A DNA stretch of 64,000 nt from Datnioides undecimradiatus. Lineage: Eukaryota > Chordata > Actinopteri > Lobotiformes > Datnioididae. Made by a program: the position numbers and the translations under genes. The notes under the pieces were generated by a model that was not told the DNA's origin, did not search any database, and saw nothing but the letters and a program-made list of their open reading frames with translations. The stretch covers positions 16,062,886 to 16,126,885 of the forward strand of contig WARS01000016.1 in assembly GCA_008933995.1 (NCBI GenBank). Reading direction: 5' to 3'. Every line of letters begins with the position of its first letter. Within the stretch, counting starts at the first letter, position 1. Positions 1-54,832 of the stretch are shown here, piece by piece.

Positions 1-3452
<3,452 letters not shown>

Positions 3453-3683
3453 TTCCGTAAGATAGCATCAGCATAGCATCGCTATGCTTCCCCCACCCTC
3501 CCCCAACCCATTCAATATGGACCACTAACCAGCGGGGGAGATGGACTACGTTCATTTTTTTATTTCTATTTTTTAGTCTTTTTTAATTGTTATCATTTCT
3601 CAGTGGACCTGCACTTCAGCGCACAGCCTCTTGAAAAGGCAGAGGCTGCAGGTATTGTGACAGACACTGAAACAATGAAAACT

Positions 3684-3700
3684 CAATGCAAATCAATGCA
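3684..3700 (+). promoter_or_regulatory. two tandem miR-33-type 8-mer seed sites in the abca1 3' UTR
   Basis: CAATGCAA occurs twice, with the heptamer CAATGCA at 3684-3690 and 3694-3700, each followed by A. This complements positions 2-8 of miR-33 and adds the A opposite position 1. Repression of ABCA1 by miR-33 through clustered 3' UTR sites is established in mammals. A weaker AATGCAA match lies at 4122-4128. Function in this species is inferred. Confidence 0.75.
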
Positions 3701-4855
3701 AGAAATATATATAGATATATTTAAAATACGAAGAAATTCCTGTGAGGGCTGGAGACCGGTGCTTCTCCTTCACTTGATGGACAGAAAGAGAGTAAAGAAC
3801 ACTTGAAGTGACAGCAGGAATATAATGCTGTGTCAGACTGGAAAGCCTGTAGCCCTGCTACTTCTCAAAGGACACAGCATCGGGGATGATAGAAGGAAAT
3901 ATTTCTAGCTTTTATGTCCCCGTTCCTGAAAGTAGTTAGCAGTAGTCAGTGGAACGCGTGTATGCGTTACCCTGTATCGTGAAATCACGACAGAGTAAAG
4001 CAAAACAGAGGTAAAAAAGTTTTGATCATTCACTGCCAACTGCTGAAAGATGGACTGACTACTTTTTTTATCAGGGTCAAATCTGTCGATCACTCTCCGT
4101 TACCAAGCGCAGTTGTTTTCTAATGCAAATACAGTAAAGAAGCATTTACAATCCAATTGATTTCAGTCACAAGCACGCAATCGTGCAACATATTAATTTT
4201 TACTAATTAGACTTTTTTTAGGATAATTTAATTCTAATAGACAACGTAACCTCGATGGAGTTTTATTTTTCCTTTGTTTGGATAGCAGTTAAGACTGATA
4301 ACCAAGTTGTCTTTTTTATTTGTTGTCCTCGGTGTCTTTGACATTGTCCAGCACAGTGCCTATACTGTACGGTGGAGAAAGAAATCTGAGCACTCCATTT
4401 AAAAGCAACAACAACGTATGTAGGCTGCTAAGGAATGTATAAGACAGATACCAACATGCATCAAAGCACAAAATGACTTTTTGTGAAGATGATAAATGAA
4501 ACTTGACTGTTTTTCTTAGAAATTGTGTCCATCATTGTCAAAAACACAAAAAAATCCTGTGGTTGCTTGATGTCCGTACATGATGCAGCCTGCTATACTG
4601 GCTTGTTTTACTTGTCCTGAAGTTGTGACTTAAACAGAAAGATGAAGATTGACTGTTTTTTATGAAAGTTTTGGAAATACTGCATGCTTTCCACTGGGCC
4701 ACACACCTGGACTATCAGCGCTTCCGTGTGTGCGTGTGTGTGCCAGAGCATGCCATCAAGATCAGTTTGTAAAGGACTGGAGGCGCCTGAATTGTGCTTC
4801 ATTGTGGTTGGGTTACTGGCACATGTTGATGTGGAGTCTAAATTGAATTCTGTTG

Positions 4856-4890: not shown

Positions 4891-6104
4891 AATCTGTCAA
4901 AATGGGATTTTGGTGACAAGATGAATCAGATGGAAATGTTCCTGCAGGTAAAACTGTAGCCCCCATACACGGAGAAGCAGGTTTCACACTGAACTCTCTT
5001 TGTATGCGGTCGAAACATGGTAACTTTTCCTTAACATGCTTTCATACATGCCTGTGTGAGGGCATGAGGGGAGAGTTTAAGACCTGAGATATCACTGATG
5101 TGGATATTATGTACAGTAGCAGCAGTATCTTGTGATGTCAAGTAGAGAAAAAACAACAAAAAAATGTTACCAGTGGAGTGAACAAACGTTATCTGTGCCA
5201 AATGGAGCTGACTATATCTTTGATCAACCAGCATTATCTTACAGAGGCAACTGTTTTGTAAAGTTGTGCTTTGATTTCAGTTCTTTATCCATCATTTCAC
5301 TTGTAGAAGCCCTCCGCCGTCATTGTCAGCAGCTCGGAACAAAAAGCACATTTTATGTTAAAATTTGTTCTCCCTCATTCAGTCTCCATCAGACTGCAGG
5401 TCTTTTCTATCGTCCTGTGATGTTGCCAAATTCTAATCTTTCTGTTTGTCCACATTAATAAGCTGCAACCATGACGTTAACTGAACCGTCAGTAAGTCAA
5501 AGTTTTGACGTGAGGTTGAGATACTTCACAAAGACTTACGTTTCCTGCGCTGGTCCAAAGGCCAGACTACACAGAAACAGGGACCATGTGAATTAGAGGT
5601 GTGCTTGTAATGCTTTATAGTCCAAAAAATGTATATCCAGGGTTTAAATTGATGACAGATTACGGGTGCTCTGTGTCTTTTAAAATCTTGGAAGGGGTTT
5701 CCGTTATCTCGGGGATCTAACCGCTGCTGCGGGACTTCAGACTCACCCTCAGCAACATGTGAGCACTTTAACACCTGAGATGTAGAAGTAAGGGATCTGG
5801 GCATGTCAAATTAGATATTTAAAAACAAATGTCTGCACTGGAACACGGAAAACATTCATATAAAGTTGAACTGCATTGCAACATTTGTTTGACACTTGAA
5901 ACAGAGAACGAAGGCTTACATGCCATTGGGAGAAATGTGTGAAACAGTGAAAAGCAGAAACGTAGTGAGATAGAAAGAGAAATGCAGGACAGTAAGATGG
6001 TGATTTTTCTCTTCTTGTGCTCAATATTATTATTTGTTTACATTTTTAAGTATTAAACAGCTCTTTGGGTCTGTTACTCATTGTGTATAGTTACTCTTTG
6101 CATT

Positions 6105-6114
6105 AATAAATAAA
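6105..6114 (+). other. poly(A) signal of abca1
   Basis: Two overlapping AATAAA hexamers lie at 6105-6110 and 6109-6114. This is the last strong signal before the next gene starts at 6461. Only about 350 bp then separate abca1 from the Kazal inhibitor start codon. Confidence 0.55.
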
Positions 6115-6349
6115 AAAATTCATACATTTTGAAAAAAGAAGACTCCTGTTTTTTTTGTTTGTTTTGTACCTTTTTCTTGCCGTAGCCGTTGTGTCTAAAT
6201 GTGGTCTTGTCAAATAGAGTTTAGTCCGTAGTTAAAGACTGAATATAAGATGTTTACTGTATGTCTGGGTGATTGTTTTAATGTGTGCTGTAAGTTTCTA
6301 GAGTGTCCATGTGTGTCCATTTTCAGCTGCTGTGTTCCCACGCACAAAC

Positions 6350-6353
<4 letters not shown>

Positions 6354-6404
<51 letters not shown>
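6354..6404. repeat. (CA)n microsatellite just upstream of the Kazal inhibitor
   Basis: About 25 uninterrupted CA units end 56 bp before the start codon at 6461. The repeat therefore lies in the promoter or 5' UTR of that gene and is likely polymorphic in length. Confidence 0.97.
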
Positions 6405-7127: not shown

Positions 7128-7166
<39 letters not shown>

Positions 7167-8121
7167 ATACATGAAGGTGTTTTGTGTGTATATGTGTATG
7201 TGTAAGAGAAGTAATGATAAGACACAACACTGTATAATAAAATACTGTATAACTGGATACATTCTAAACATAAATTGTGGTGACTGAGTTTGCTCATGAG
7301 ATGAGTTAAACCAGATCCTTTCCGGCAGCCCTCCTGTCCTGTCATGGAGGAGATCATGGCATGCCCTCTGAACTTCGCTCCCGTGTGTGGCAGTGATGGA
7401 AACACTTATGCCAACGAGTGCACCCTGTGTGTCCAGAGAATGTGAGTGCACACAGCTGCTCCATGCTCACAGGATTCTCACATTATCTCAACATCATGCC
7501 AAATTTTCTTTTAGGGAGGCTAAAGTGGCACAGTCGCCCTCTGGTGGTGAATTAGTTTACAGAACACAGGAAATGCTGAACTCAGAGGATAAGCACAATG
7601 ACGGAAAGTGTTCCACTTTAGTTTATGAACCTTTTATTCTTCACACAAAATGATTTGGCAGTCAGTTAGCCATTACTAGAAAATGATGGTCACATCTTCG
7701 GTCACCAATTTGTGAAAAAATGTTTCATTTTACAGATATTCCAATGAATTATAGTTGGATGGTACAAAGAAAGCTAGTCAATATTTCAACAAATCACAGA
7801 AGCTTAAGGATAGATGCATGTTTTTTTCAATACTGCTCTTGTTCTGGGTTTCTATTTCTGTCTTTTTTCATTTTCTCTTTTTTAATTCTATAACAAACAG
7901 TTTTTGTATTTGAAATACGTTTTCCACAATTCCGCTACTGTTCATCTTGAGTTTCTGAGTTGTTGGAAGGTGTAATTTCCCAGAAAAAAAAAAAAAGAAG
8001 ATTTTCCAACTTCACTCTAATCACCAACACTGATACAAAGTCTAAATTAATCTTGTGTCATGATCCCTTCTGCAGTGAAACCAGAATGGACATTTTGATT
8101 GCCAAGGAGGAGAGCTGCTGA
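6461..8121 (+). CDS. small secreted Kazal-type serine protease inhibitor (SPINK-like)
   Basis: Four exons join in phase: 6461-6512, 7078-7109, 7329-7441 and 8076-8121, giving 80 residues. Residues 1-18 form a signal peptide (MTGRVVFLGLLLICVVAG), so the product is secreted. A short linker is followed by one Kazal domain with six cysteines spaced C-x8-C-x7-C-x10-C-x2-C-x17-C, including the family core PVCGSDGNTY. By the usual Kazal numbering (second cysteine plus two) the P1 residue is Leu, which suggests chymotrypsin- or elastase-like targets rather than trypsin; this is inference. The last residue is the sixth cysteine. The start codon is the only one that gives a signal peptide. I cannot name the exact SPINK orthologue. 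The gene sits between abca1 and stra6l on the same strand. Confidence 0.85.
7131..7164. repeat. (GT)n microsatellite in the Kazal inhibitor intron 2
   Basis: About 17 GT units begin 21 bp after the inferred exon 2 donor. It sits opposite in strand sense to the CA tract upstream of the same gene. Confidence 0.95.
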
Positions 8122-16091: not shown

Positions 16092-16910
16092 GTAAGGTGA
16101 ACATGGGAACATCTTAATCTGTATGCGAATGCTAATGAAAGGTTACGTTGTTAATAATGTGTTGGTTTTTGAAAGGTTAATAGTCGCCCGAAAAAAAACT
16201 TTATTTTACCGCAAATCTAGCTGCAAACGGACAGTTAGCCGTTAGCTAAGGCAGCCTGAACAGAGGATAGCCTGCCCCTTACGCGTCAGTGGTTTCATAG
16301 TTCACAGTGAGAACGCTATCTTAGTTTTACATGAAAATAGACAAAAAATGTGCCACGTTTCTGGCTTGAGACGGCAATGCTTGTGGATGTGAACTTGCAG
16401 TACTGTAATGCTAATACTCCGTATGCTAAATGTTCGCATTCGCAAATTAACGTTGAACGATTAACTGTTTCGCAGTAAGACAAACATGAATGTTTTGTTG
16501 ACTTTTGATAACTTTTTGTACAGAAAATGAGAAAAGGTGAAACGCTATATCTTGACTCTATCACCCAAAACTCACATTTTACATTATTCGATTTAGCTTA
16601 ATATTTATTGTGTACATGTGTTGAACTCTCTAAACTGTTAAGTACAACAGCAAACCTCCGCTCAATGTCATGTTAGCCAAATGGCTGTTGTTGTCTTCAA
16701 AAGTCAGAACAAATACAGCCCTAATAAGCCAGCCATAGCCTTGATTAAAATACAGCAGAATCCAGTGACATAAAAATAATAATGCACAGTGCTTTGAAAA
16801 CACATTTGGGAAACAATAAGCAAGTCAGAGATGTGCTAGTGTATTTTAAACCCCACTGATCTTTATTTCTGCCAACTGCTTTGTTTCTGTATTAGCGTGT
16901 ACCTAGAAAA

Positions 16911-19900
16911 ATGTCAGACAGCGAGTCCATCAAGAAGATGTTGCGGTCCGTTCTCCAGTCCAGCAAGACTGGTGTGTCCGTGAACACCCTCCAGTCAGAG
17001 TACCGGTCACTGTGCGGAGAGAACATCCCGCTGAAGAAGATGGGTTACTCAAAACTGGAGGACTACCTCCGGAGCATCCCCTCTGTGGTTCGCCTGGAGT
17101 ACCGCATGGGTCAGGTTGGTTTATTTTTAGTTATTTTTAAAGTAAGGTCACATTTTCCAGGCTATCTCAAATATATATCAGTGTAACAGTATTTCTGCTC
17201 TGTAGCTGACATGCTTTGCTGCAGTGTGTCAAGAGACTGCCCACATTGCTGAGCTGGTGGCCAAGCAGAAGAGCTCCAAGAAATCTGGTCGCTCCCAAGT
17301 CGTAAACTGCAGGATGAGATTTAAACCTTCAAACCCATATATGCTTAATGGTAGGAGACAGGTGACAGATTTATCCGCTTGCATGAGGGCGATGTCGCTG
17401 CAAGACCTTCACATTATAATAGTATCAAAGCATTTGGGACACAACTTTCTGTGTCCCACCTCCTCTTTTCCACTCTATCTTGACTTATTATTTCTGTTTT
17501 TCATGATTTTAGTGAAGCCAAGGTCATCTCTACGCCAACCCTCTGCTGCCGGTGCCCTTAACTGGCTAGCTCCGCGGGCCCATGGCGGCTACAGAGGCTT
17601 TAGTGCTTCAGGAGACTACAGGTGATCGATATCTGAATAATTGTTTATGTCAGCAACTGATGAGCAATAGCTGCACTTAGTCTTATAATTCAGTTATTGT
17701 CAGAGGAAACCTTTAAATGTTACATTTCAATCTCAGAGAATCAAGTGAAATGTAATCCTCTATTCACACATCATCTTTAGTAAATGCTGTGACAAGTAAA
17801 TCAAATTTTTCCTTGTGTTCTTCCCAAACACCAGGCAGTCAGACCAAAGGTTAAGCTCCATTACTCCTGTGGAACACAGACAACCAGCCTCCCAGTCAGC
17901 CATAAAACAGTGTGTCGTGCCTGTCAGGTGAACGTACACATGCGGACAAACATTATGAAGCTAAACTACTCTCTTCTACAGTGGAGACCAAAAGCTAGAG
18001 ATGGTTCTTTTTACTTTTGGTCCCCATTATATAAACAGTACTGTTTTTGCTGCGCTCATGGGTAATTATTTATTTGCGTTAGCAGACTGTATGCAATGAC
18101 ACCAGCACAAAATGGATGGAAATATTAGAATGTATCACCAGGCCAGCCTGTTTACTGATTTTACTTGTATATTTACTTCATCTTGATATTTATTATATCA
18201 AGAACCACATCAGCACATTTGTATTGAATGACAGCTTGCCACTCAAGTACTTCTATGTTGCCAACAGGAAGGAGAAGACCGTTGCAAACTGCCAGAAGCC
18301 CACAGGTATGAGGGACCTTCTTGATGTGTATCCTCCACAAATGTCAAAATATTGAACTGAAGAAAGTTCTTCAATAAAATCAATACCTGTCATACATATT
18401 AGAATGTCATACATGGCATAAAACAGAACTACATTTATATTAAGTCAAAACAATATACATGATGTGCTTGATGACTGAGCGCTTCATAACTGATAACTTT
18501 TAGCCAGTGCTGTTTGTTGACAGCAGACCTGTGTATAATATCAAAATTGGAAAATGCTGACAAAGCAAAACTCAGCCATCATTAAGCACACTAACAACAT
18601 GCTAAGTGTGTGCAAACTGTTTAAACATATTAGCACTTAACCTTCCATCTTCCTTTTTACACAAATTTTCACAGAGAAGCCTCCAGAACCCGTCTCTAAA
18701 CTCAACCAATCCCAGGTACAGTGAAGTCTTTCTGTTTTATGCTCACCTCTGCTTAAAACTGTCTTCACAGTTACACCCCTATTACAATGTTTGCACAAAT
18801 CAAAGAGTGCGCAACACTTGGGCCAAATCCCAATTTTTATTTTTTACTTTCTGGTTTCTATATGTGTTTTATTTATTTATATATTATTTATATGTGTGTT
18901 TTATTTATAAAACACATATAGAAATGGATGTAGAAATGGATATGGGATTTTAAAAAAAATCTAAACTCTGTCAAAGCACAAGGATGTTGTAGTGATTATT
19001 TATGTAGAATGTCCCCTTGCAGTCTTGTCCATATAGCGTGGAGCTGGTGCAGAACAGAGTAACTCAGCTCCTTGACAAATACTGTTCTGGGCTGTGGATG
19101 TCGAAACTGTCGGGGTTTTACAGTGAAATGTTCAGTCAGCAGCTCCACCCTCAGGTGCTCACTGATCTGGAGAAGTGGACACAGATTTGTACGGTGAGTC
19201 AGTAACTTGTATTTGTACATATACCTGTTATTTAGGTGCACAAGTTGATAAAGTTAGCTGTTTAATCCAAATACAGTTAAAGGTTCAATCAGAATTTTTT
19301 TTCTGTACTTATTCCCAACCTTAACAAGAAGTGATTTCAGTCAAAGTCTGTCTTCCTCTCTTTCCATCTGTGTCTTGCTATGTTGCCTTCACAGGTAGAG
19401 AAACATTCCAACATCTATCAAAAGGACCGCCTGATCTACCCTCTTCTGCCTCCTAAGCCATCTGCCAATTATAGAAGTAACACCACCCGTCCAACATCAC
19501 CCGCTGATTCAAGCACCATCATTTCACCCATATCTTCACGTCCTTCAACACCTGAGCCACCTTCAACCACCCACCCTTCTTTCCCTGTTCCTAAACCTAG
19601 AGTTTCCTCCCAAAAGCCCTTAGCTAAACCCACATTCATTTTTCCTCTTCAGCCCCCTGCTGCCAAATCAGGTAAACCGTTGTCATTAGTCACATTGCGT
19701 AGCCCTGCCCACAACCCAGCTCTGGCTCCTGTGCTGCCCCCCTGTGTCAATCGTGCAGTCAGCACAGATGGTGGAGGTGAAGAAAATCACAGCGTGCCTA
19801 CTTCCCACAATCACAATCGAAAGCCTCAGCCCTTATCTCCAACCTGGACTTTCCCTGCATCATCCAGTGCCCCTCCACAGGCTTCCTCCCAACCTGGCCC

Positions 19901-22900
19901 TGACATTTTACCCCTTTTAAAAGCCACCTTCTCCCCTTCCTCCGATTCTGCCCTTTCTCCTCCCTCAAAATCTTCTGCTGTTGTTGTGTCAACTGAGGTG
20001 CGTCAGAGAATAAAGGAGCTTCTGTCTAAGTACAGCCATGGTCTGTGGGCCCATGCTTTGCCCAAACTCTTCATGGACACATACAAGGAACCATTTCCTG
20101 AACACATTCTGGACAACTTGTCTCTGTTAGTGGATATTTGTACTATTGAGTACCCCATAGTGCACAACAAAAAGAAGGTAAGTGAAGGAGATGGGACAAT
20201 AGTAGTATGGAGAAAGCCTTTTTAAGTCTTTAAATATTTGCATTTATTGATGTGTTTGTCATTGTATGTACTTTCCTTTGGTCAGGCCATTCTGTATAAC
20301 TGCAGCAGAGCAGCCACAGAAGCAACAGAGAGCCAAGACAGCCAACAATGCAGGAGCCATCCACTTCCCTCAGGTCTGGAGGTCCTGAGCTCTGTGGCTC
20401 CTCCCTGTTTGGTTCTTCCCTCAGAGCAGTACCCCTCTGTGCTGGTTACTGATGCTAAAAACAGTAATGCGGTTACTATAAGGTGAGACACATAATAATC
20501 TTGCAGACATGCAAATGTCATTAATTGCCCCTAATGATAAGACTAAATGATAATTACGAAATTTCCCTCAGGGGATTATAAAGTACTTCTATTCTATTCG
20601 ATTCTATTCTATTCGATTCTATTCTATAAATAAAAGTTTTATGGGGAATCTTTCATTGCAAAATATTGGTGATTACACCATCAAATATGATGAACTTGTG
20701 TTTTCTTTGTTACAAGGTTTTTCAAGACTGCCAAGCACAAGTTGAGCTGAAAAACAAAGTATTTATCTCTTTGCTCAGATATGTAGGTGAGAACTATTCC
20801 AATGCCCAGGAGGCCATGGAGGACGCCATGCAGTCCTTCTACAATGAAAGCTCCACTTACCGTCCTCTGTCCAACCCAGTTGTTGGTCAGCTGGTGGCAG
20901 TGAGAGGGGAGGATGGAGATGAGCTGGCCAGAGCTCAGGTCATAGAGGTTGTGGCTCCAAATAAAGCAAAGGTAAAGCTTGTTCAGTACGTTGTCTGTAG
21001 TTTTTTTTTTTGTTTGTTTGTTTGTTTGTTTGTTTTGTTTTAAAAAAAATATGTTTATGTTGGGCATTGTCAAGAAGCCAATTTTGTTCACTCTAACTAA
21101 AACAGAAACCCTGGAAAGATAAGTGTGTAAACCTTTTTAGTGCTTTATGATGTCTGATCAGAATTGTAGACTTCTAAGGCTTCTGGCCTGGGACACAGCT
21201 TATGGTGATTTTTAATTTTTTTGGAAGAAGATATTTTGTGCAGAATGGCCAGTGACTTTTCTCTGTCTGTTTGCCAGATATACTACGTGGACTATGGCTT
21301 CTCTGTGGAAACCAGTAGGACTAATCTGCTGGAACTGCACCAGGACTTTCTATCTTTGCCATTCCAGGCCATAAATGTTAGACTTGCAGGTACATAGACT
21401 GGGAAATGACTTAAGGACTTCATATGTGACTGATCTAGATGAAAGATGTCACAAAAGACAGTATTTACAGAAGTACCAGCAGAAAGATATACAACATATT
21501 GTAGGTCAAGAATCATTAATGGCCCTGCTACACTTGTCCTTCTTCTCCCTCGTAACTCTTTGTACTTCTTCTTCCCTTCCATCCTCTAGGTCTAGAGGCA
21601 TTCAGCTCCCATCCACTGGTGCTGTCATCTTTGGAGAAATTGGCAGTTGGAAAGATCCTGCTGATGGAGCCAGTAGAGCCGTGTCAAGAGAATGAGATTC
21701 CCATGGCAGTGCTGTACGACACTTCGCAGGATGATGACGTCAACATAAACTCCACCTGCCTGAAGGCCCTGCAGGACAAGACCATGAACAATCCTTTGAC
21801 TGTAAGGATGGTGGCGTTAACTCCATATATAGTGAAAATGCACACATAAAAGCAATAAAGCAGCAACAAAGAGGCAGTTTTTCATATTTTTAATTTGGCT
21901 TAGCTTCTAGTGAGTGGTGCTGTTCTCATCTTACTCAGTTAACAATAGCCAGTTGTATTTCAGAAGTGAAGTATTAGATTTGATGATTTTATTAAGTTAG
22001 AATTACAATCAACGACTTACCAGCCATGAATGTGACGCACTGTGTTATCAAAACCCTGTCTGTTATCTAACATGAATCTTTCTGTTGCCTGTAGGTAAAT
22101 GCTACGTATCAAGATGTGCGTGTCACAAATGTGTGTGCAGATGGTATCATTTACTGCCAGCTGCCCTCCAGAGGAACTGCAAGACTCAGCAAGTTACTGG
22201 AAGAAACAGAGGCCATCTTTACCTCCCAGGTAGACTGCATGAGTTTATGAGTAATTCCAATTGCCTTTGTGCTTAAACAGTGTTATTGGACAATTTACAA
22301 CAACTTGGTTATTTAAACCAAGGTCTGTGAATTTGAGGGGAAAAAAAACCTAGAATGAGACTGGTCATTGTTTAAGTTCTTTATTTAGTCTTTTTCTTTA
22401 ATGTTTGACAGGAGACCAGACAGTCAGCCATCATAGTAACCCAGCACAACTGAGAAGTGCCCCAGCACAAATTTAACAAACTTACTATAGTTGTGGCAAT
22501 TCAGTGACTACACAGTAAAGTCAAATTTGTGCATTTTAAGGGGATTGAACAGCCTCTCCTTATTCCAAGCATCCCACTTAAGGCACATGAAAACTATACT
22601 CCTGGCTTTCTCTGTGCTATGCTATTCTCGACTATACTATACTAAACTTTATTACAAGGTGCTATTACATTGTTTTTGGACAGTGTCTGCTGTTCCTGTA
22701 ACTGTAATAACTATAGTTAGTTCTCTAATTAAGTGACACAAAGCATCAGTTCAATATCTGACATCTTGTATGAGTTGGGGTTTTATTAAGTATACGTGTA
22801 TAATAAAATTGGATATGTGTGGGTGATTAGAGCCTGTGTTCAAGGATGGTCTTTGACATCAAATATCTGGCCACCTACCTACCCCAGGCTGATGTCCCTG

Positions 22901-25900
22901 GCCCCTTCCCAGTCAACACTCTTGACTGAAGTGGTGCTTATCACCAATGTCGGTTCTGTCTCGTAGTTAGAAATATTGCCATTTCCCCGCAGCTGCTACA
23001 GCTGATTTCTTAATTAACTCCAGTTTTACACAGTATAAAGGTAGGTGGTCTTACAGTATGTGTAACTGTGTTGTCAATCTTCTTTCAAGATGACATCTGA
23101 ATGCCTGGTGTCAAGACCCATCAGTGGCAAATTCTATCTAGCCCGCCATAAAGGAAAGTGGTCCAGAGTGGAGGTAAAAAAAAAAAAAGAATCTTTAAAA
23201 TGTATTTCTTTCAAAAACCCAAATTTAAAAAGCTCACATTTGTTTAAGACATTGAAAGTATTGAGAAATCATATTATTGACCAGTTTATGATCATATTTC
23301 ACCCATTTGCGTGTTGTTACTTTTGTTTTCAGATAATCAACATGTACGCCAACAGAGTGATGGAAATTTTTTTTATTGACTTGGGTGTGTCAGCAACTGT
23401 AGAGGTCACTGATCTCAGAGAGATCCCCCCTCTTTTCCTCAAAGACTTTACCATCATCCCACCACAGGTCAGTAGTTTCTGCGTGATCCTGTGTCAGTTA
23501 TTACACTTTAATACTCAATCACTCCACTGGTTATAGAAGCATCTTTCATCTGTTCGTTGATTTGAGCTTTGTTCTGATTTGAGTTTTTCTTGTGTGTTGT
23601 TTCTCCCCTAAGGTTATTAAATGCCGCCTGGCTGACCTCAAAGTTCCAGAGGGAGACTGGAGCTTGGAGGCCGTTCTGTGGGTGAAGGAGGCTATTTTGG
23701 GATCCAAAGACTGTAAAATTAAGGTAACACACTGGTACATAAAGGTAACGCATATCAAAGATAAACTTTTTTGTCCTTTATGTCCCACGAGGATGCATTG
23801 GGATGAATGTGCACGGTTACAAGAGCTGCCTAGAGGCAGATTTCTGCTGAAAGCTTATTACGTGTTTTATCGTAGATTGTTTTTACCACTGAGGCAAAAA
23901 AATATTTTGACTGTGTTGCTTTAAGTTACACAAAAAATACCACACACTGGTTAAGTTCACTACATACTTTACTGACCTCCACAGTAATGTATATCAGTCC
24001 AATAGAGCATCGTTGGGATGTGTTGGAATGGGATATTTGACTCATGAATGTGTAGCCAACACATCTGTCATGTCAATATGGGGCAGAATGTCCAGACTCC
24101 AGCACCTTGGTGAATCCTTGCCATGAAGAATTCAGGCTGCTGTAGTGGCTGGAGGGGTCCTTCCTTGGGGGTTGGGACCTTTTTAGCAATGTGCATCTAC
24201 AGTGTGGCCACTGGCAGTGTATTGGAGTTGTGCTGATGTAGCTCTAAATACTCCAAATGTAAACAGTGCAAATCAAGTTTTCCAGTAAGACCTGTAAGAT
24301 CGAGAACAGTGCATACCATGACACTGGCCCAAAGGTCTGTTTAACATTCTCCCTCTCTTCCCTTACTTGAGATCTTGAAATTAGACCAGCACAAAGGGGA
24401 CTTGCTGGTCTACATGTATCTCTTCATTGGCACTGATAGTCAGGAGCTGGACAAGAGCATCAACCATCAGCTGGCCCAGTCAGAGTTGTGGCGCAGACTC
24501 ACAAAACACAACACGATCACCAGCAGTAAATGCAGCGTGGATACAGGTAACACTGAGCATGACATGAAATCAGTCTGTTCTGGATCTGGTATAGTTTCCA
24601 CCAACAGTCAATATTTAAATACATGATTAAGTTTGGTTTAAGCTTTGTTTGAGAGATTTTGTATTTTCTCCCAACTGTTCCATCATGTGAAGTCAAGGTT
24701 TTAGGACAGTGAGACATTTTTGTTGTTTTGATTTCATATTTAAGCACAGCGTCTTTGAGGTTAAAGTATTGACACAGCTTTAATCTGAGGGTGTTTTCAT
24801 GTACCTGTGTTTTCCTAATTGCTAGGACTTAGTGCTCTAGTGGACAAGTTGACTATCAGCAGCTTGGATTCAAACCCCACTGTCAAGGTCTCCAACCGCC
24901 TTCTCCATGGAACAGAGGACTCATCTACTCCACGTACAGCAACCAAAACTGGGGTGCAGCCACTTCCAATGCCTCCCCCGCTTGAGGTCCCGCAGGTGTG
25001 TGGAGTTGGAGGAACATTCTCCAAGGGCTCACTTATCGCACTCTCACCTTTTTAAGAAACCGATTTCTCCATGATGTGTGGATCATCTGTGGAAGTGCTT
25101 CAAGATAGGCAGGCGGGGCATATTGCTGGGAGGAACTTGAATTTCCACGGGATTTTTCATTTCACCTTGACAAGCAAGCTCAATCTTAATCTAACTGCAC
25201 ACATCATATATTTGCCAGTTTCCAGTGTCGCCAGACTGCAGCCAATTCACTTTTTGTGCACACTTAGTTTTGACATACATTTTGACCATAGAATAATTGT
25301 TGTTTCTTCTTAGAAACAGGTGGAGAAAGCAAATCATCAGCCAAATAGAAATGAACAATAAACAAAGCCTTAAATGCACTTCATTCTCCTCCTTCAGCCT
25401 GGTCAGAATATGGATGTGTTTGTGCCAGTGGCCTGTCACCCTGGTTACTTTGTGCTGCAGCCATGGCAGGATCTGCATAAGCTGGTGGTGTTGATGGGAG
25501 AGATGATCCTCTACTACAACCAGACGTGGAAGACCAGTACAACCCCACATATCCAGAAAGGGGAGGTCTACGCTGCCAAATTGGACAAGAAGTAGGTCGT
25601 TCTCACCTGATGCAAACCTGACAAATCAGACCTGTTTCATCATTGACAATCTACCCTTATAATTTCTGTAATATTGTGACCATAACAAGTAAATAATGAA
25701 ATCTCATAACCAAACTACAATAGCTGCTAAAACAGTAGATAATATAATAGATAATAGAGCACTTTTCAGCATTTATATACATATGAGGAAAAGTGGCTTT
25801 TCTTAACTGATGCTTGCCTCTCTCTAGTTGGCACCGTGTACAGGTAAAGGGAATTCTGGCCAACGGGTTGGTTTCTGTCTACGAACTGGACCACGGAAAA

Positions 25901-37300: not shown

Positions 37301-40300
37301 CGAAGCTATAAGTAGCGCTCGTAAGAGCTCAGTTCTGAATTGTTGCTTTAGGTTGAAAATAACGTGGTGAACAGCAAAGCTCTGGGAAATGTCTGTTGGG
37401 CTGGAGAAGAGATAGTGATTGATGTGGGAGTAACATTAACCAGAGATACAATACTGCCATCTCTATCTACATCTGTTTATTTTGATATAGTAAATTGCTA
37501 ATTGTATGAAAAGTGTGGGTATTCCCCTACTTTAAACTTTTTTTAAACCTGTAATTATGAATGTACCATGCAGTTTTTGGTCTGTTTTATTTATTTGGTG
37601 AGTTTGATCTATTATATCTCATTCCTCTTTGATAGCTACAATGAATTGCCCCAATATTCAGGCATATTTAACTGTAAATTCCTCCAAATAAAAGACCAAA
37701 AAGGTCTCTTCCATTGAACAAACCATGTTAAATCAAGCTACTCAAAGAGAGCACACTCAGTGGTTCCACTGGTGCCTGGAAAATATATAACGGAGATTAG
37801 TGATTTGTTCAGTAGTGTTATTCTAACACAGAGGAAATCCTGCCATAATTCATTGCTCTGCACTGGTGTTGCAAGGTATTACAGGACTACAATTTGATTG
37901 ATTATAAAAGAAGTGAGACAAATTTAGAAAAAACAAAACTTTTTTCCCAACATCCAGTGCCAGTCGTGTGATTTCTCATCCCCATCCAGAATGCATTGTT
38001 GCCAGCTGGGATGCGTCAAAAAGACCAGACAAAGAAAGCCCCAACAGGAACGTTTCAGAGAGACAACCTGCTCGCCCACCTGGAGAAACAGGCCAAAGAG
38101 CATCCTGACAAAGAAGACCTGGTGCCCTTCACGGGGGAGAAGAGAGGTAAAAAGTTAATGAGAAGGAGGCTTTTGTGACCAAAGAACTGTTTTTATCATG
38201 AAAACATTCAACCCCTGCACTGTTTGGCTTTCCTAAATATCAGAGACAAGAGCTAAGGAGAGTGTGGGCTCTGAATAATGTATAATATATCTGAATAATG
38301 TTTGATGCTCACTGCTGGAGAAGGTCCACATGAACTCTCAAACCAATCATGGCCAAAACTAAATGACAAACCTTAAATTGTGTCTGAGGAAACCCTGAAG
38401 ACAGAGGTCTGTCATGGGATTCTCAGGTGTCTGTGAGGTTGTTGTTTTTTTTTTAAATTCCCTAAATGGTGATTGGTTTGACAGGACCACCCCTTACCAG
38501 GCCTCATGAAGCCTGTTAGCGAGCCAGCGCCAGTCTAGCCTAGTGTGGACACAGAGGTGTGTGATGGATGGTGTGAGATACCAGATGTCTCTGTGTGAAA
38601 CCCTAGAAGGTCTCCCTGCTGTCACCTTCGTCATGTTCTCCCTCACTGGTGTCATTGCTTTAGTGTGTTTGCATATTTAAGACAGAGGAAGAAAGTGGGT
38701 TTCAGTTTAATTTCACTGTCAAACTGCAGGTGACGTGAGGTGAATAAGTCGTTTCTGCATGGAGCACGGAGCTGTCAGTCATCACTCTGCATTTGCTGCG
38801 CACCCGCCTCACACTGAGACACTTAGACCTCAACACGTTGCTTCATTGTCAAAGCTTTATTTTTTTTTCAGCTGTGTGCTGACCAACACGAAAGGAGGTA
38901 GTGGTATTAATTTGGGGGCTGAGAGAGAGCACAGGTGACTTTTAAAAACCTGCTGCCGGCAGCATGTGTTTATGTTGGGGTCAAAAAATGTCTGGCTGAA
39001 ACTCGAGGAGCTGACCACACTCACACACACACTCACTCACACACACACACACACACACACACAGAGCAAACAGACACGAATCTCTAGGTCTTTACGGTCA
39101 GTCAGACACAGTGACGACAGCTGTGGTCAGGTGTGATGTGATGAAGGGATACTCAACACAGGCAGCTCAGCTTCGTTATGTAACAGGGCTGGTTTGGATG
39201 ACAGGAGCTCATCAGAGATCTCCTTGTGGCCCAGCACCTTAGTTTAACATTAACGCTTAAAACACAGTTGTAAGTTCAAACAAGTTAATTATCTCTGTTG
39301 ATTCTGTAATTCATCGTGGAAATACATCTTTTTCTCTCTATGAAAAGTTAACAGATTCTAAACATCTCAAGTAATATAATCTACAGCAGTCTTTGAATGC
39401 ATCTTAGTGTTATGACACACTAAAAGGCCCTATACACCTGTTGTCCACCACAAAGGTGTTATTACTTATTTGCCTGATTAGACTGTAGGCCTGATTCATT
39501 AAAATGTTCACGTGTTGAGGCAGAACAGCTTTTCACAGACTGTGGTGTCCTTTCCCATCATTCCCAGCACAGTTTAGCTCAACTTCATCCTGAGCAGCAA
39601 GTCTAATGAGTCAGCATGGAAAACACCCATGTGAACGCAGAGGGGACCTGGTCTAACTTCATAGTAGTAGTACTCGTACTACTGTATGTCACTCTAATAA
39701 ATCTCCCCACTCATGTTGTAGGGAAAGCCTGGGTACCTAAAAAGAGGGTGGACCCCATTATAGAGAGTGTGACACTGGAGCCGGAGCTAGAAGAAGCCCT
39801 GGCTAGTGCCTCTGATGCTGAGCTCTGCGATATTGCAGGTAATGTAATCCATAGTACTATTTTCTGAAAAGAGAAATAGGAAGAACTTTATCAGATTTTC
39901 ATGTGTGTATATTATTAAAAATATAGAGATTAACCTTTGGAGTTTTAATTTCTATTGAAAACTAAAAATCATCCTATAAACCGGACTGCTCACACACACA
40001 CCCACATACTTACATAAAAAATTATCTGAATGAATGATAATAATAAACTGGATCTAATGATGAATGTGCAGGTGTCTGATTATTCTTCTCTAACTAATCA
40101 CTGTAAACACCATCATGGCCTTAACTTCCCCCATTCACTTGCTTTTCCTTAATCCAGATCTTCTTCATTTCCTCTAGTGTCTCTTCCACCTTTACTCCAC
40201 CCTTCCCCTACATCCCTCCATCAGTCCCTCCATCTCCTCCACCTTCTCCATCCCTGCTGGATATGTCTGTTCGCTAGCTGAACGCCACCCAGGGTATCTG

Positions 40301-43300
40301 TAGACTGCACGCAGTGTTTGCATGGAAACATTCTGGTCCTCTGTCATGTCCATGTTGTCGGCATGCTGACGAGACATTTAGCAAAAACATGCAGCTCGGC
40401 TGAGAGATGCAGTCAGACGGTCAAATGTCTCCACTGCACATGCATTACCCTGGTTATTTCATTGATTCTGTGTAATGTGGCAAATGCCATCAATTATTCC
40501 CGCATGTACGTATTTTATGATTGAAATCATTAAGTGTAATGAGTTATTAAGACTGAATTCTCAATGTTTTTCACACTGCAGAGGTCCCATTATTTTTTGA
40601 TCTAAAATACATATCTTAACCAGAAAGCCTTAAATTTAGTAAACAGCAAAATAGTTTTTTCTAATGTGCTGACACACATTTTATTCCAGAAAATTATTAT
40701 ATGCTTGGGGTGTTATTAACTAGCAATAGAAGGGCACTATTCTGACCTCACTTATGCCAAGTTTAGAGAAACTCCAGATCTAATTACAACAATAAATCCG
40801 CTTGTTAGACGGATATATTACAGCACGTGAACACATTTAGTTTAATCCACTGCCATCTACGTTGCAGAAAGCTCAAATGTGTAAACAAACCTGCAGCTAA
40901 GAGCAGAAGTTGTACTCGAGAACCATGTTAGAAGCACAACAAGTCCCTGAAGTTGTCACAGGTAACAGGCTCCACTTCTCCTAAGAGCAGCTTGTGTTCC
41001 CTAACTGTTAATTCGTCCACAAACTGTTCTCATGCTCCTGCTCTCTCTGACAGACAGATGGGGCAATAATTCTCTCTCTAACACGTCCTCAGAGCAGCTG
41101 CTCAGTCTGAAACTCACTGTGCAGGACACAAGGAGGAAAATCCTCACATGCAAATACCTGAACATCCTTTATAGTTATGATACTGCAGGTGGAGTATCAC
41201 ACTGATCTGTAGTCAGCCAACAGAGGGCAGGACCTCCACTGTGGCCACAGAAACAAAAGCCGGGACACATTAACACTTGAAACTTGACAGCACCACAGCT
41301 GCCCCATGACAGTGTCCGGTTTACTTGCTAGTGATGCTGCAAGTGCTGATGTGCTGTCTATTAGCATGGTGGTCCACTGTTTGATTGCAACGAGACAATC
41401 GTGAAACCATTGTATTGATGCATTTCTGTCTTTCTTTATCTTCTTCTACTCTTCATTTTCTTTTCCATCCTCATTCAGTCTACTTTGCTGTCTTTCAGCC
41501 ATCCTGGGTATGCACACCCTGATGAGCAACCAGCAGTACTACGAAGCCCTGGCCAGCAGCAGCATAGTCAACAAGCAAGGCCTCAACAGTATGCACACAC
41601 GCTCACACACATGTCCTAAAACTTATGTAATGAGTCTTTTCATTTGCATGACCTGTCTTCACTCAGTTCAGTCACAGATAAGGATACATGCAAAAGTATC
41701 CCTTAAATAAAGCAGATCAGTAGTTGGAAGAACATATCACCTCATTGAAGAAAAATGTTGAAGCGAGTTGGACTGAAATCAAGTGAAAAAATGATCTCAT
41801 GTTGGCAGAACGTCAGTGTATTCTACCAAAGATGACAGGCTCAGCCTTTGTTTGCTCGCCATGCATGCACAAATATAGTTACAGATTAAAACAAGGTCCC
41901 GTCAAAAAGTAGATAAAGCTCAGTGTATACAGGCACTTGTACTTTGTTGGATGGCTCCTCCAGGAACAACACTAATGAATCATCTGTTCATCTTGCAACA
42001 CGCAATAGTGGCACACAGACACACACACATTTTAATGAGCCACTGTTTATCCTGCTTATCCTATAGATTCTGCACCAGCTCTAAACAGAGACAAATGCCG
42101 AACATCTGACTTCCAAATATGACCGTCCCTCTGTCTCATAAAGAGAGCCAGCTATAAACTTCTGATTCACTCACTTTGTTACCTCCAGCACTGATTCACA
42201 GGACAGCGCATTAAAATAGAGTGAACGATAAGTCTGTTTTGGCTCTTGTTTGAACAATGCTTCACATTTACACACTGAAAATTAACATTTCTGTATTAAA
42301 CAGTGAGATTTTTTGCTTTTGCCTAATCTGTTACTGCACATTTTCCAGGGAATTAATAATATGATGTGATGCTTATTTGCTTTTTTTATTGTAGACTGAC
42401 AGAAATTACCTAAGGTGACTCAAATGTCAACTTCTATAGATTAATTATATTAAGAAAAAACTTTTTGGTGTATTTGCTTGGCAAGGACTGAACACACCAG
42501 TCCAAAACCATCAACTATACAGGTCATATTATGTACTTTAATTAATAAAGGTCTCAGAATTTTAACGAAGAGATGTGAGGAAAGGGCCACAATGATGTGG
42601 TCAGGGTGACCTTCACAGTAAGGCTAGTTCGATCCGTAGTCTCCTGCTGTGCCTGAGATCGTTTTGTGTAAATGTGCTGCAGGTGTGATCCAGTGCACCC
42701 AGTATAAACCAGTCCCCGATGAAGAGCCCAACTCCACTGATGTAGAAGAGACCCTGTTGAGAATAAAGAGGAACGACCCTGACCTGGTTGAGGTCAACCT
42801 CAATAACATCAGGGTAGGTGTATGGAGTTTATTGTGGATTAGGATTTCCTGCTCTAACCGACAGTTTATAAAGTTGTAAAAGTTATTAATTATAGTCATC
42901 TGTCCCTGGTGCTGTTTACGACAAAACAAAACTAAACTTTGTTTAAAAAATACACATCATGTTTAATTATGTTCCAAATTCAAAAATAAATGTTGATGTG
43001 CACTATTTTATTTTCACTGTTGTTTTTGCAGTGCTAATTTAAAAAGCTACTGCTCAAAATAATATTTAAATTAAATAATATATTTGAAATTCAGCACACA
43101 ATACATTTCTTTTCTAGCACAAAATTCTACTCTGATAAATATATTTTGATCAGCTTGGTATATATTTACTAGCTAACATGTTGACATGCATTGATAAAGA
43201 TAAAACCTCTTAACTGTAAACCATCATCCTGATCATGAATGATGAATCAAAATCATCAAAACAGAAACTTTTGAAATAGAAAGTGGAAACTGACTCATCT

Positions 43301-46300
43301 TTCAGCTTCTTTTTACATCTGAGAATAAGTAATTAGCATAACATGTAACATTTACTGAGCTGTAATGTTTTGCAGAACATCCCCATCAAGACTCTGAAGG
43401 CATATGCTGAGGCTCTGATGAAGAACACCGTGGTGGAAAGGTTTAGTATTGTAGGAACCAGGAGCAACGACCCTGTAGCATTTGTGAGTCACAACTGTAA
43501 CATTTAACACGTACACACTTGCTCCATTTGCTCCATTTCTACAGTATTAAAGAAATGAGTAAAATAAGTGTTTCAGTGTTAAACAGTGTTATTCAGTGCT
43601 TGTGTTTGCCTGTTTCATCAGGCCCTGGCAGAGATGCTGAAGGTGAACACGTCGCTGAAAAGCCTGAATGTCGAGTCTAATTTCATTACTGGGACGGGAA
43701 TCCTGGCCCTCATAGAGTCACTGCAGAATAACACCACGCTACAGGAGCTCAAGATAGATAATCAGGTATCTACAACATCGCGTATATGCATAGTCATACT
43801 CGTGTACCATGCATAAGAATGTGTGTGGGTATGTGCGTCAGGTAGAGTACACAGGCCATCTTTGCCACTTCAGTCTAATGCCCCCTGACTTCATTGGTAT
43901 GAGCCACACTGCATAGTTGGGCTCGGGTGACTCACTGTTTAGTCGTTTCATAATTCTTTTCTCTTTACTGCATCTCCCATCTTTCTCCAACGTTCCTTTG
44001 TGGTTTTGCTCAGTTGACTGACTCAATGATTGATTTTTCAAAATAATATGAAAAAGAAGTAAAAGCATGTTACCCCTTGCCATTTCATCCTTTGTTGCCA
44101 TGGAGATCACCACTTTAAATGCTGTTGCATTGTCTTTGTACTTGTTTTTTTTACTCTTTTTCTCTAACGTTTCCATCTCACTACAGGAAAATCCCCTCCT
44201 TTTACTTGCCGTTAGCACATCACTACATCTTTTCTTGTATCTCTCCTCCACCCTCACTCTCTACTCACTCTCTCTAAATTCCAGAGCCAGCCATTAGGCA
44301 ACAAGGTGGAGATGGAGATAGCCAGCATGTTGGAGAAAAACACCACACTGTTGAAGTTTGGATATCATTTCACCCAGCAGGGCCCGCGCCTCCGAGGTTC
44401 CAATGCCATGATGAACAATAACGACCTGGGTGGGTTGCACACACACGCACGCACACACACGCGCACACACACGCTTTTCAAATCATAGATGAGCCCTGGA
44501 AACAAACACAATCATTCATTCATTCAGCACACATTTTATACATCTAACTGAACAGGGAATGTGACGAAAGTTCATGAATTGGACGTAAACTGCTATAATC
44601 AAGAACATAATGTATCTTATTGACTGATTCACCTCAAAGTTCTTAAGTTAGTTATGTAAGTCGTACACAGCCTTTCAGTACTATTTCATTTGGCACCTTT
44701 GCTCACAGCGTGCGTCAGTGCTGACACTTTATCTTCACTATATCTCCTTGTGTTCCACTGTAATCAGACTCTAATAGAAGAATCAGAATGATATCATCGG
44801 CCGGTAACTCAGTAGTACAGCCAGAGAGCTCCAGCCAATCAAAACAGCAGCTTCCTAAGTCATGACATCAGCACTAAGAAAAGAGTGTGTGCATGAGAGA
44901 GAGAACAAAATGAAACTTCTGGAGGAAATGGTTGTCTTGTATATGTGCATTATTGTTATGTTTTCTAGTTGCATGTTTTTTTTTTTACTTTTTACAATAG
45001 GAAAGAATCTATAAAGATTCAAAAGTATTCAAGATTCAAAAATAATGTCTGTTAAGTCTGTGTGTGAGGATAAATGTGATCAATGCCATTTTGACCCTCT
45101 CCCCTCCGGTAACGGTTAGTACAAGATTCAGCATTTTGATTTTATGCGGATACGGTTTGTGGATTGTTTTTGTTTATAATGGTTATACTCTTTGCTTGTA
45201 TTGGGTCACAAGCCACCTGAACTTAACATGTCATAATGTTGTCATAACCTTGTTCTTCCCCCACCGTCATCTTTAAGCCCGGGTCGTCAGGTCAGAGTCG
45301 GATGGCTCCTTCACCCTCACTCTGTCCGTCCCTGAGTTGGAGAGGGCCTTCGGGAAAAAGTTCAAGTCTAAGACTAAGTACAAAAACCAAACAGGAATAC
45401 AAGCAATACACTGTTTGACCGCTCAGCATCTTTTGCCACCTGGTTCTTTTCCAGACCAACAGAAAGCCCTGCCAACACCTGTCCTCCTCCTTTGAGAGTT
45501 TCTGTTGCTTCATCGCTTTCCCTCTTAATCTTCTAGTCATCTCATCTCTTCGCAGTGACCCGTGACAGTGTCTCTCTATTTTAGCTGCTGTTGCTCTCTA
45601 GTCTCTGCTATACTCACAATATATATATTTATCTTTATATTTTTGCTACAGTTTACAAACACTTTCTAAAAAGTACAAGAGTCTCTGCATGACAAAGCAT
45701 CAAACTTGACAATGCTGAAGGAAATACGACTTATAGAATGGCGAATAAATCAGAGACCAGTTAACTTAAGAGTAGCTCACTTGTAAGAGAGTTAAATAAT
45801 ACCAATTAAACTTGAATTTTACCATACTGATATTTTCACAAGGCTATAATATACCATCATTTTAGCATAAACAGCAGATAAGACTAATTTCCCAACTTTT
45901 GTCAAATGTCCCAAGACACTGATCATTTATTCACTGGACAACAGCGCCCACTACATACCTCTTCTGTCTTTCCAATTCAACGGGACAAGATAAGACTGTC
46001 TCCCATTTGCTTCCTGTAGTAGCTTCTCTGAGTTATACTGTCTTTTGGCTGCGCTGTGAAACTGCAGGAACATTTTCTGCGTCCACTTACCGGTAATAAA
46101 TCTGTGCTTGTCTGTTCTTTGGTCACTTTACTTTCATTTCTCCTTGGCCTTTTTACTTTATTTGATCATTCTGCTGACCTGCCGACTTTACTGCATCATC
46201 TGGAGGCATTTAGCCCCTGTCTTCACCTCTGCTGCCCTTCTCCAAAGCTGGATTGCTAACCTTGCAAAATGGGAAACTGCAATGGGGCCCCAAACCCACA

Positions 46301-51755: not shown

Positions 51756-54700
51756 CTATTTCTTCAGCATGTCTTGCAGTGGGCCTGGCAGGTATTTCAT
51801 CACTGTGTCCATGATGCTTTCCTCTTCTTCCTCATCACCACAACCAGCTGGCACGGCCTTCTTGGGTCGGGTCAGGCTGCCGGCTGCGGGCTCCTCGGCG
51901 GCGGCTGCTGCTTCCGCCTCAGCCTCCTCCCGTTTTTTCAAGCCATACTAATGGATTTAACACCAGAAACAGAAGTATTAGTAAGTTGGGCGGGTGAGGG
52001 ATACAAAGGAAGCCTATTTGGAAAAAAAAACAACAGAATTAAAAGACTTTATATTACAGTGACACAAAAAGTCATGCTATTTGATACATTTATGTAAACT
52101 ATGCATTTAGTGGGTTGGAGCTGCTCCTTTTGTCTTAACTCTGAAATATATGACACCTGTCAGGTGGACAACACTGTTGCCATCAGCTGACGTCCTAATA
52201 TTGTTAACTGCTTTAACAATATTTTGGGCAAAGACTGCCCAAAAGACTCCAGTGAGAGCTCCTCAGGGTGTGACTTTTTTGAGCCCTCAGGCACACTTTA
52301 GTCCATCTTCGTAAACCTAATGGCAACAGTGGGAAAACTGACTAATTGTAATCATTTCTAAGAGTCCTCAACATTTAACTGCATTGAGTATATGTAATGT
52401 ATTTGCAATGCTTATTTCCTTGGTCCAAGTGAATCACATCACCTGCAATTGTGACCGTGGCACACCAAACTACACTGTAATGGCTGTTCTGTCCCTTTGT
52501 TGTGTCTTTAATGTTTTTTGTCTTGTTGTGGAGTTCTCCTTCCCCCCTCGTGGTTTAAAACATCTATTATGGCAGCTTTTGCCTTCTGACCTGAAGGGTT
52601 TGACACTAACTTGTGCTGAGCCAGCAGCACTGCTTGTAGCATCATAAGCATTGGATATAAAGCAGTTTGGTATGTGTATGTCTGTGTGCATGCTATTGCA
52701 GGACTGAAAATACAAACCAATGGCAATATAACGCTACATACATTGAATGTGACTTTCATTGAAATGAATTATGATCTTTGGGTGATGTGAGTACCTTGGA
52801 AAACAGGCACTTCTGTATTTTTTGAACTTTATGTCTGATATATTGATGGTTTTGGGAGAGTCAGTATTTTCCAACTGTAATTAAAACATAGTCGAAAAAT
52901 ATGTAATCAATTCAATAGAACAGCAATATCAGATGGCTACTTCATTATGCACATGCACTGCAGCCAGTCTATCCTATTGAACACTACACGTCAACCATCA
53001 AATGGAGCCTTTTTCTGTTTTCGTTTTGAGGGTTTTGAGCAGCTGCTAACCCTTCATCTTTCTCTTTGTCTTGTTCCTGTCTGTGTCTTTCAGCTTGGAA
53101 TATGTCAAAAACAGAGTAGAAGTCTCGGCTGCGGCTTTTCAGTGTTCACACTATGACAGTGCACATCAAAATTTTGGAGTATGCATTTTGTTTGACAAAG
53201 GCACACAAGACAAAAACACATCAAGCTTTGAAAACTACTGATACCAAACCTGCATTGAAAAAAGATACAATAATAGAATTATCATTCCTCATTACCAAGA
53301 TACAAAATATAGCACTGTGTGCTTTTTAAAAGTAATGTATTATTATGATCATCTTGCATAAAGAAGTGCAGTAAAAGGTTCTCCATGTTATTGATAAATG
53401 ATAACATCCATCTGCTGACAGTTCTGGCAACAATGTCAGCATCGTTAAACTTCCAAACAACCTGATCAAGCAGCGTAACACACGACACTATTTGCTCTGT
53501 CATCTGACACACTCTAGCCTGAGCACACATAATATGGACATTTCTCACAGTATCTGACACTGTGGGATAAAAGCTATGGAGGAAGCTGACAGGAACCTTT
53601 CGGTAACGAGCATTTTGGGAGTTGTTCCCCGCTCTTTGTTCTCCGCTGGGAGAACTTAAGAAGAATGGAGGAGGTGAGCAGCCAGGGGAGGAGTGCCGCT
53701 TTTCATCCTGCTGATTCACAGTATTCCCCTCAGACCTGCCCCACCCACAGACTGCCTGTCTTTCACACTGTCTCTGCAGCGAAGTGGTTACACTGCAGCC
53801 TTTACCACCACAGTAGCCTTGCGGCCCCACATTTGTGGAGATAGGAACTTAAAAAAACACTGTCTGAGTGTGAACTAAAAAGCAGACAATAAAACACACA
53901 TTACTCTAATGCTGAATCAAAATGCAGAAGGCATTACTGGATACTGCTTTTTAGACAGAAATGCAATAAATGATGCAATAATAACATGCACAGAACCAGT
54001 ATTAATCTGGACAGCAACCTCATAATTCACTAATACATTATTATACATTGTGCATCTTATTGTTACAGATGTAACTGAAGCATTTACTGAACAAGAATTT
54101 CTGGATAACACTCTGCATTTCTGAAGCAGTCCTCTCTCTGACCCACCAATTTCTGTCTAAACATTCAAATGTATTCTGATTAATCAAGTCTCCTTGTTTT
54201 GTTCTACTTGTCTCAGTTCTGTCCAAATCCTTGCTGGTGCTCCACTGATCTATTTTATAATCTCAGAAAAAAAGTTAACAATAGCACAAAAGCAAACAAA
54301 AATAGCGTCATAATACACTACTTCAAACACAGGTCTGTTATAAAAAGAGTTTTGCTGTCAAGACGTGAAGCTGTTAAGAGCTACCACGACAAGCATAATC
54401 ATCAAGAACTTTTAGATCAACGTGAGACAATTTATCATAGATTTTCACTCTTGCTTGTCCGTTTTCTTCCCCCCCAATTTGGTTTTCACGTTTCTGTTAG
54501 CATCCTTTATTAGAAAATTAACCCTAATTGTATTCCCTCCCTCTTCTGCAGACAATTAAGAGACTGACTGACTTGGTTACTTGTGTAGGGTTAATGTGTT
54601 CCATTTGGTCAGCAGGTTATTGGACAGCATATTGTTTTTCACTTTCATCATACCTTATCCCTGATGCCTTGCCTCATGCTTTCCCTCTCAGCCTCCATCT

Positions 54701-54832
54701 TGGCATATTTGGCCTTCCTCTCTTCCTCCTGCTGCCTCAGGGCCTCCTGTCGCTCCTCCTCTTTCTTCGCCGCATCAGGGTCCTCTTCCTTCTCCTCCCC
54801 ACCCAGCATTTTACCCACATCGGGAGGGCCAC
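51756..54832 (-). CDS. cplx: complexin 1/2-type SNARE regulator, 5' exon missing from the window
   Basis: Complexins bind assembled synaptic SNARE complexes and clamp, then promote, calcium-triggered vesicle release. Two minus-strand exons are seen: 54654-54832 and 51756-51947, which includes the stop. Together they give about 123 residues starting in a split glycine codon. The first exon holds the acidic N-terminal part ([15 protein letters not shown]) and the charged accessory/central SNARE-binding helix ([20 protein letters not shown], then RQGIRDK). The last exon holds [28 protein letters not shown] and the terminal [12 protein letters not shown]. There is no CAAX box, which excludes complexin 3/4 types. 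Residues mix CPLX1-like (AKYAKME, RQGIRDK) and CPLX2-like ([17 protein letters not shown]) features, so the paralogue is not assigned. The first coding exon (about 10 residues) was not found on the minus strand up to 64000. Confidence 0.92.
51948..54653 (-). other. last intron of the complexin gene
   Basis: Donor GTATGA (minus strand, at 54653) and acceptor CCATTAG (at 51948) bound this 2.7-kb intron. It contains a 182-codon minus-strand ORF (53282-53830) that I do not recognise and treat as probable chance. Nothing else gene-like was seen. Confidence 0.7.

Follow-up and report, generated by a model that had tools for sequence, protein, structure and literature searches.

Two miR-33 sites with a 10-nt spacing in the 3' UTR of a fish abca1 gene: one element with alternative pairing registers?

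Introduction

Clustered miR-33 sites in ABCA1 are the basis of a much-studied cholesterol switch and drug target. In other vertebrates, miR-33 is made from an intron of srebf. The stretch of DNA from Datnioides undecimradiatus that was analyzed here (64,000 nt, referred to as the window) carries two exact matches to the miR-33 seed, which start only 10 nt apart behind the stop codon of a gene that we assign to abca1. The question raised by this locus is whether clustered sites of a miRNA that contains its own seed word twice are separate sites or one bipartite site. A fish pair with such a spacing provides a test for this, and if the bipartite reading were true, the site counts for miR-33 targets in general would be read differently. 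Regulation of abca1 by miR-33 is already known, and it is the geometry of the array that is of interest and worth attention beyond the known regulation. What is new here is the presence of the seed word at two positions of miR-33, together with a repeat of 2.7 copies and a period of about 10 in the abca1 3' UTR. Published work is cited by PMC number.

The Window Carries the 3' Part of an abca1 Gene

The window starts within the coding region of the gene, whereby the first of the exons is cut by the window start and all 12 introns have GT/AG borders (Table 1). The stop codon is TGA at 3450-3452. The 576 C-terminal residues of the gene product have their best solved-structure match in human ABCA1 with 1247.6 bits, compared to 941.8 for ABCA4 and 931.5 for ABCA7. 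Judged by these matches, the gene is ABCA1 rather than ABCA4 or ABCA7, which bears out the identity given in a preliminary description of this DNA. The end of the 3' UTR near 6120 was placed by a scan for poly(A) signals, not by a transcript, and is thus a predicted one. An Rfam search over the whole window yielded no match at gathering score, and a search of viral and prokaryote contigs for stray vertebrate DNA with one abca1 exon (81 aa) led to 26 and 239 stretches that fitted peptide patterns, none of which was a relative.

Besides miR-33, further miRNAs that are presumably linked to ABCA1 have matches in the 3' UTR, namely miR-144, miR-17/106, and miR-148, whereby we take both the links and the seeds of these miRNAs as assumed. 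Since miR-34, miR-96/182, and miR-30 also match once each, a single miRNA 8mer is not special in this 3' UTR.

Table 1. Positions of features within the 64,000-nt window
Feature	Position	Strand	Basis or remark
Last 13 exons of abca1	3..3452	+	Spliced frame open, 576 codons plus stop
abca1 3' UTR	3453..~6120	+	2668 nt; predicted 3' end from AATAAA at 6105 and 6109
Repeated word ATAGCATC	3462 and 3473		Overlaps the hairpin 3470-3488
Hairpin just 3' of the abca1 stop	3470..3488		8 bp, 3-base loop, predicted -10.2 kcal/mol
Tandem repeat, 2.7 copies, period ~10	3673..3701	+	Tandem Repeats Finder, consensus CAATGCAAACT, 89% matches
Degenerate partial third copy CAATGAAA	3673..3680		Part of the tandem repeat
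Upstream miR-33 8mer CAATGCAA	3684..3691	+	Exact match
Downstream miR-33 8mer CAATGCAA	3694..3701	+	Exact match
ATGCAAAT, presumed POU octamer	3686..3693 and 4123..4130		
miR-34 8mer	4031		Single 8mer
Weaker miR-33 match AATGCAA	4122..4128	+	7mer-A1
miR-144 8mer	4362..4369		
miR-96/182 8mer	5195		Single 8mer
miR-17/106 8mer	5763..5770		
miR-148 7mer-m8	5834..5840		
miR-30 8mer	6035		Single 8mer
AC and GT dinucleotide repeats	6354..6404 and 7131..7164		Within ~1.1 kb 3' of the abca1 poly(A) signals
Kazal-type protease inhibitor exon	7305..7445		Downstream of abca1; Pfam PF00050, 2.8e-12
OST-HTH/LOTUS and Tudor domain exons	16896..25592		
Tropomodulin-like exon, then leucine-rich repeat match	39610..43813		Pfam PF03250, 1.6e-9; repeat match just below the Pfam cut-off
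Complexin/synaphin exon	54651..54887	-	Pfam PF05835, 4.6e-20

Two miR-33 8mers Lie Within a Short Tandem Repeat

Both copies of CAATGCAA are canonical 8mers located within the 3' UTR, as each presents CAATGCA to miR-33 nt 2-8 and an A opposite nt 1. They follow the stop codon at a distance of 232 nt and 242 nt, respectively, and are separated by two bases (AT, 3692-3693), so that they are 10 nt apart from start to start. The preliminary description had recognized the two exact copies, the 10-nt distance of the seed starts, and the weaker third match further downstream, and these points were confirmed. Its start of the pair at 3684 was likewise correct, whereas its end at 3700 is one base short, its gap of three bases is actually one of two, and its distance of 230 bp from the stop codon has to be corrected to 232 nt.

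Tandem Repeats Finder places both 8mers, together with the degenerate partial copy CAATGAAA, in one tandem repeat. The flanks of the two sites are AU-rich (75% and 78%, compared to 61% for the abca1 3' UTR), and in predicted accessibility the sites rank in the middle (51st-52nd percentile). An exact search of the genome (581,297,614 bases in 497 contigs) for the 18-base tandem word led to a single match, which is the one from the window itself (1 forward, 0 reverse).

Over the whole window, CAATGCAA occurs at background level, with 7 matches compared to a mean of 5.81 in 100 shuffles, 32 of which reach 7. Of 20,000 dinucleotide shuffles of the 2668-nt 3' UTR, 2564 had at least one CAATGCAA, 173 had at least two, and 9 had two that lay within 40 nt; the respective numbers from 20,000 order-3 Markov simulations were 1012, 27, and 2. 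Thus, the pair is uncommon in simulated UTRs. If a single named miRNA is considered, this is notable, but a correction for approximately 100 miRNA families, which is a round figure chosen by us, leaves only about 0.01-0.05. The match is convincing because miR-33 is already tied to ABCA1. Local repetition of complex 8-mer words is frequent (84 clusters within 64 kb), so that the second CAATGCAA is likely to have arisen by slippage. It is the identity of the repeated word as a miR-33 8mer that is uncommon, and not the repetition as such.

The Seed Word Is Present Twice in miR-33

The sequence of miR-33a is GUGCAUUGUAGUUGCAUUGCA (PMC10527677). Here, the seed word UGCAUUG is found at nt 2-8 and again at nt 13-19, a point that is absent from the preliminary description. 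When the letters of miR-33 were shuffled, nt 2-8 were repeated likewise in 65 of 200,000 versions. Because the seed word stands twice in the miRNA, one miR-33 could span both sites. In the best predicted duplex of the region (-18.0 kcal/mol), the miR-33a seed (nt 2-8) pairs with the downstream site, nt 12-19 pair with the upstream one, and a 3x2 loop separates the two paired segments. When the abca1 3' UTR was scanned, no miR-33 duplex had a lower energy, the next being -17.2 in 4333-4372. If the downstream site is scrambled, miR-33a is predicted to pair with the upstream site via nt 2-8, 10-13, and 15-19 at -17.1 kcal/mol, whereas the downstream site reaches only -12.2 kcal/mol when the upstream one is scrambled. 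By these predictions, the upstream and downstream registers compete for the same letters. Shuffling of nt 9-21 of miR-33 resulted in equally good pairing in 137 of 5,000 versions.

The prediction of bridging is not specific to the 10-nt spacing, because the program yields it for most random spacers (200 per spacing): it was predicted in 65-99% of the trials at 8 to 33 nt from start to start and in 50% at 38 nt. A tandem seed match combined with a miRNA that has an internal repeat leads to bridging nearly by itself. With the same random spacers, the mean energy was best at 11 nt (-23.42), compared to -22.32 at 10 nt. The AU spacer of the array ranks 15th of the 16 two-base spacers in duplex energy, and the 3' pairing of the downstream site, which starts at nt 12, has an offset of -1, whereas the optimum for pairing from nt 12 is given as 0 or +1 (PMC8940178). 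Since spacer and offset are suboptimal for bridging, there is no sign of selection for it, and selection for a bridging geometry was rejected as unsupported. In our literature search, which covered part of the field, no account of one miR-33 gripping both sites was met.

miR-33 and abca1 in Other Vertebrates

Mouse Abca1 contains a 3' UTR region with three miR-33 sites, which was replaced in mutant mice (review PMC8103095), and in mice with mutated Abca1 miR-33 sites ABCA1 is increased in macrophages and liver (review PMC8707585). This is in accordance with the clustering of mammalian sites that had been pointed out before. The D. undecimradiatus array resembles mouse Abca1 in the miRNA, the gene, and the presence of several 3' UTR sites, whereby this is a likeness by description and not by UTR sequence (PMC8103095). 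A putative conservation of the clustered arrangement from fish to mammals is plausible.

Among teleosts, a lowering of abca1 mRNA, which served as the positive control, has been reported for hepatocytes of rabbitfish (Siganus canaliculatus) 24 h after treatment with agomir-33, and a figure legend of the same paper names the pairing of miR-33 to the abca1 3' UTR (PMC5027541). Rabbitfish abca1 is a teleost counterpart in which miR-33 action, as assumed for the fish gene in the preliminary description, has been described. The "adjacent" miR-33 sites in that paper, however, belong to insig1 and not to abca1 (PMC5027541). Zebrafish and carp are stated to lack miR-33 (PMC5027541), and so the presence of miR-33 in D. 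undecimradiatus is not to be assumed as a matter of course. In rainbow trout, abca1 was not consistently regulated by miR-33a, with a positive correlation in hepatocytes and an in vivo table value of -0.22 that is not marked as significant, and the authors concluded that their results oppose a direct targeting of abca1 by miR-33a (PMC7048274). In a second rainbow trout study, none of the evaluated genes correlated with miR-33a, whereas plasma cholesterol did (PMC6218197). Neither of the two trout studies reports that miR-33a and abca1 are negatively related. Thus, the link between miR-33 and abca1 in teleosts is published but not uniform.

A Candidate Element With Two Alternative Registers

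The array is real, is probably functional, and is a new example of a kind of miR-33 element that has already been published. In the explanation that we prefer, and which we hold to be rather probable, miR-33 acts on abca1 through this element in the proximal part of the fish 3' UTR, whereby the pair would constitute a single strong landing zone that offers two alternative registers. Argonaute-loaded miR-33 would pair via its seed with either of the 8mers and thereby reduce both the abca1 mRNA and the export of cholesterol. With the seed in the downstream register, the 3' half of this miR-33 molecule, which holds the seed repeat at nt 13-19, would lie on the upstream site, and in the upstream register it may lie on the degenerate third copy CAATGAAA. 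Two Argonautes are probably unable to sit together on the array, because the seed starts are only 10 nt apart. Since this is outside the published optimum of 13-35 nt, below which a steric clash has been suggested (PMC4081082), one bound complex at a time is favored. The sequence, the gene, the rarity of the pair, and the internal repeat of miR-33 are observed and the duplexes are predicted, whereas a presence of miR-33 in this species, a repression of abca1, and an occupancy of the array by one complex are inferred.

It could also be that the array has no selected function at all and that tandem slippage in an A-rich stretch merely doubled a chance CAATGCAA. The frequency of local 8-mer repeats, the resemblance of the array to a 2.7-copy tandem repeat, and the number of simulated UTRs with at least one CAATGCAA would be in line with such an origin, as would the rainbow trout results, which do not support a regulation of abca1 by miR-33 (PMC7048274, PMC6218197). 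However, the doubling concerns the 8mer of a miRNA whose link to ABCA1 is well documented, and it is located close to the start of the 3' UTR, and abca1 is lowered by agomir-33 in another teleost, the rabbitfish (PMC5027541). We regard an array without selected function as unlikely.

An improbable alternative is that two Argonaute-miR-33 complexes are bound together and repress cooperatively, as close sites do elsewhere. An over-representation of conserved sites for the same miRNA at close spacing has been described (PMC9650897), and either site of the array is predicted to pair alone when its partner is scrambled. The spacing speaks against it, as 10 nt between the seed starts is not only below the 13-35 nt range but also closer than the approximately 15-100 nt for which synergy is stated, and steric hindrance is stated for overlapping or excessively close sites (PMC9650897). 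The view that the tight spacing disfavors two cooperating complexes, as put forward in the preliminary description, is thus in line with published limits (PMC4081082, PMC9650897).

Apart from repression, pairing of this type might act on the miRNA itself. We consider it very improbable that the tandem CAATGCAA array, by matching the internal repeat of miR-33, holds one miR-33 by both of its halves and forms one bipartite high-affinity element that can also mark miR-33 for degradation, so that abca1 mRNA would feed back on miR-33. The related suggestion that the array is a trigger of target-directed miRNA degradation (TDMD), so that abca1 mRNA would destroy miR-33 besides being silenced by it, appears remote as well. 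The predicted duplex at the downstream site has an 8mer seed and, beyond a 3x2 central loop, 3' pairing over 8 contiguous positions. In seed pairing, internal loop, and extended 3' pairing, it resembles the TDMD triggers Cyrano/miR-7 and Nrep/miR-29b (PMC13041716, PMC13083262). In contrast to these, the 3' pairing of the abca1 array stops at nt 19 and leaves the 3' end of the miRNA free, with the last two nucleotides of miR-33 unpaired in the best duplex, and the likeness is one by description and not by trigger sequences (PMC13041716, PMC13083262). The offset of -1 argues against a trigger, too. By our own version of a published scoring scheme (PMC13041716), the downstream site has a TDMD score of 7.5, which is reached by 18 of 3,000 shuffled UTR stretches, but the upstream site scores only 5.5, which is reached by 295 of the 3,000. 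Scores of 2.5-5 were obtained for the five other CAATGCAA copies in the window, and a score of 5.0 for the weak third match. Among the TDMD papers that were checked, none mentions miR-33, miR-33a, or miR-33-5p as a whole word; for the two mouse ZSWIM8/TDMD papers among them, this applies to the main text.

It is hardly credible that the words act as DNA, since ATGCAAAT, which we take to be the POU octamer, overlaps with the upstream 8mer and with the weaker match at 4122-4128 but occurs at window background (7 matches compared to a shuffle mean of 5.60, with 39 of 100 shuffles reaching 7) and is lacking in the downstream 8mer.

Neighboring Genes

Exons of further genes were found downstream of abca1 (Table 1). 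The gene that contains the OST-HTH/LOTUS and Tudor domain exons is probably tdrd7-like.
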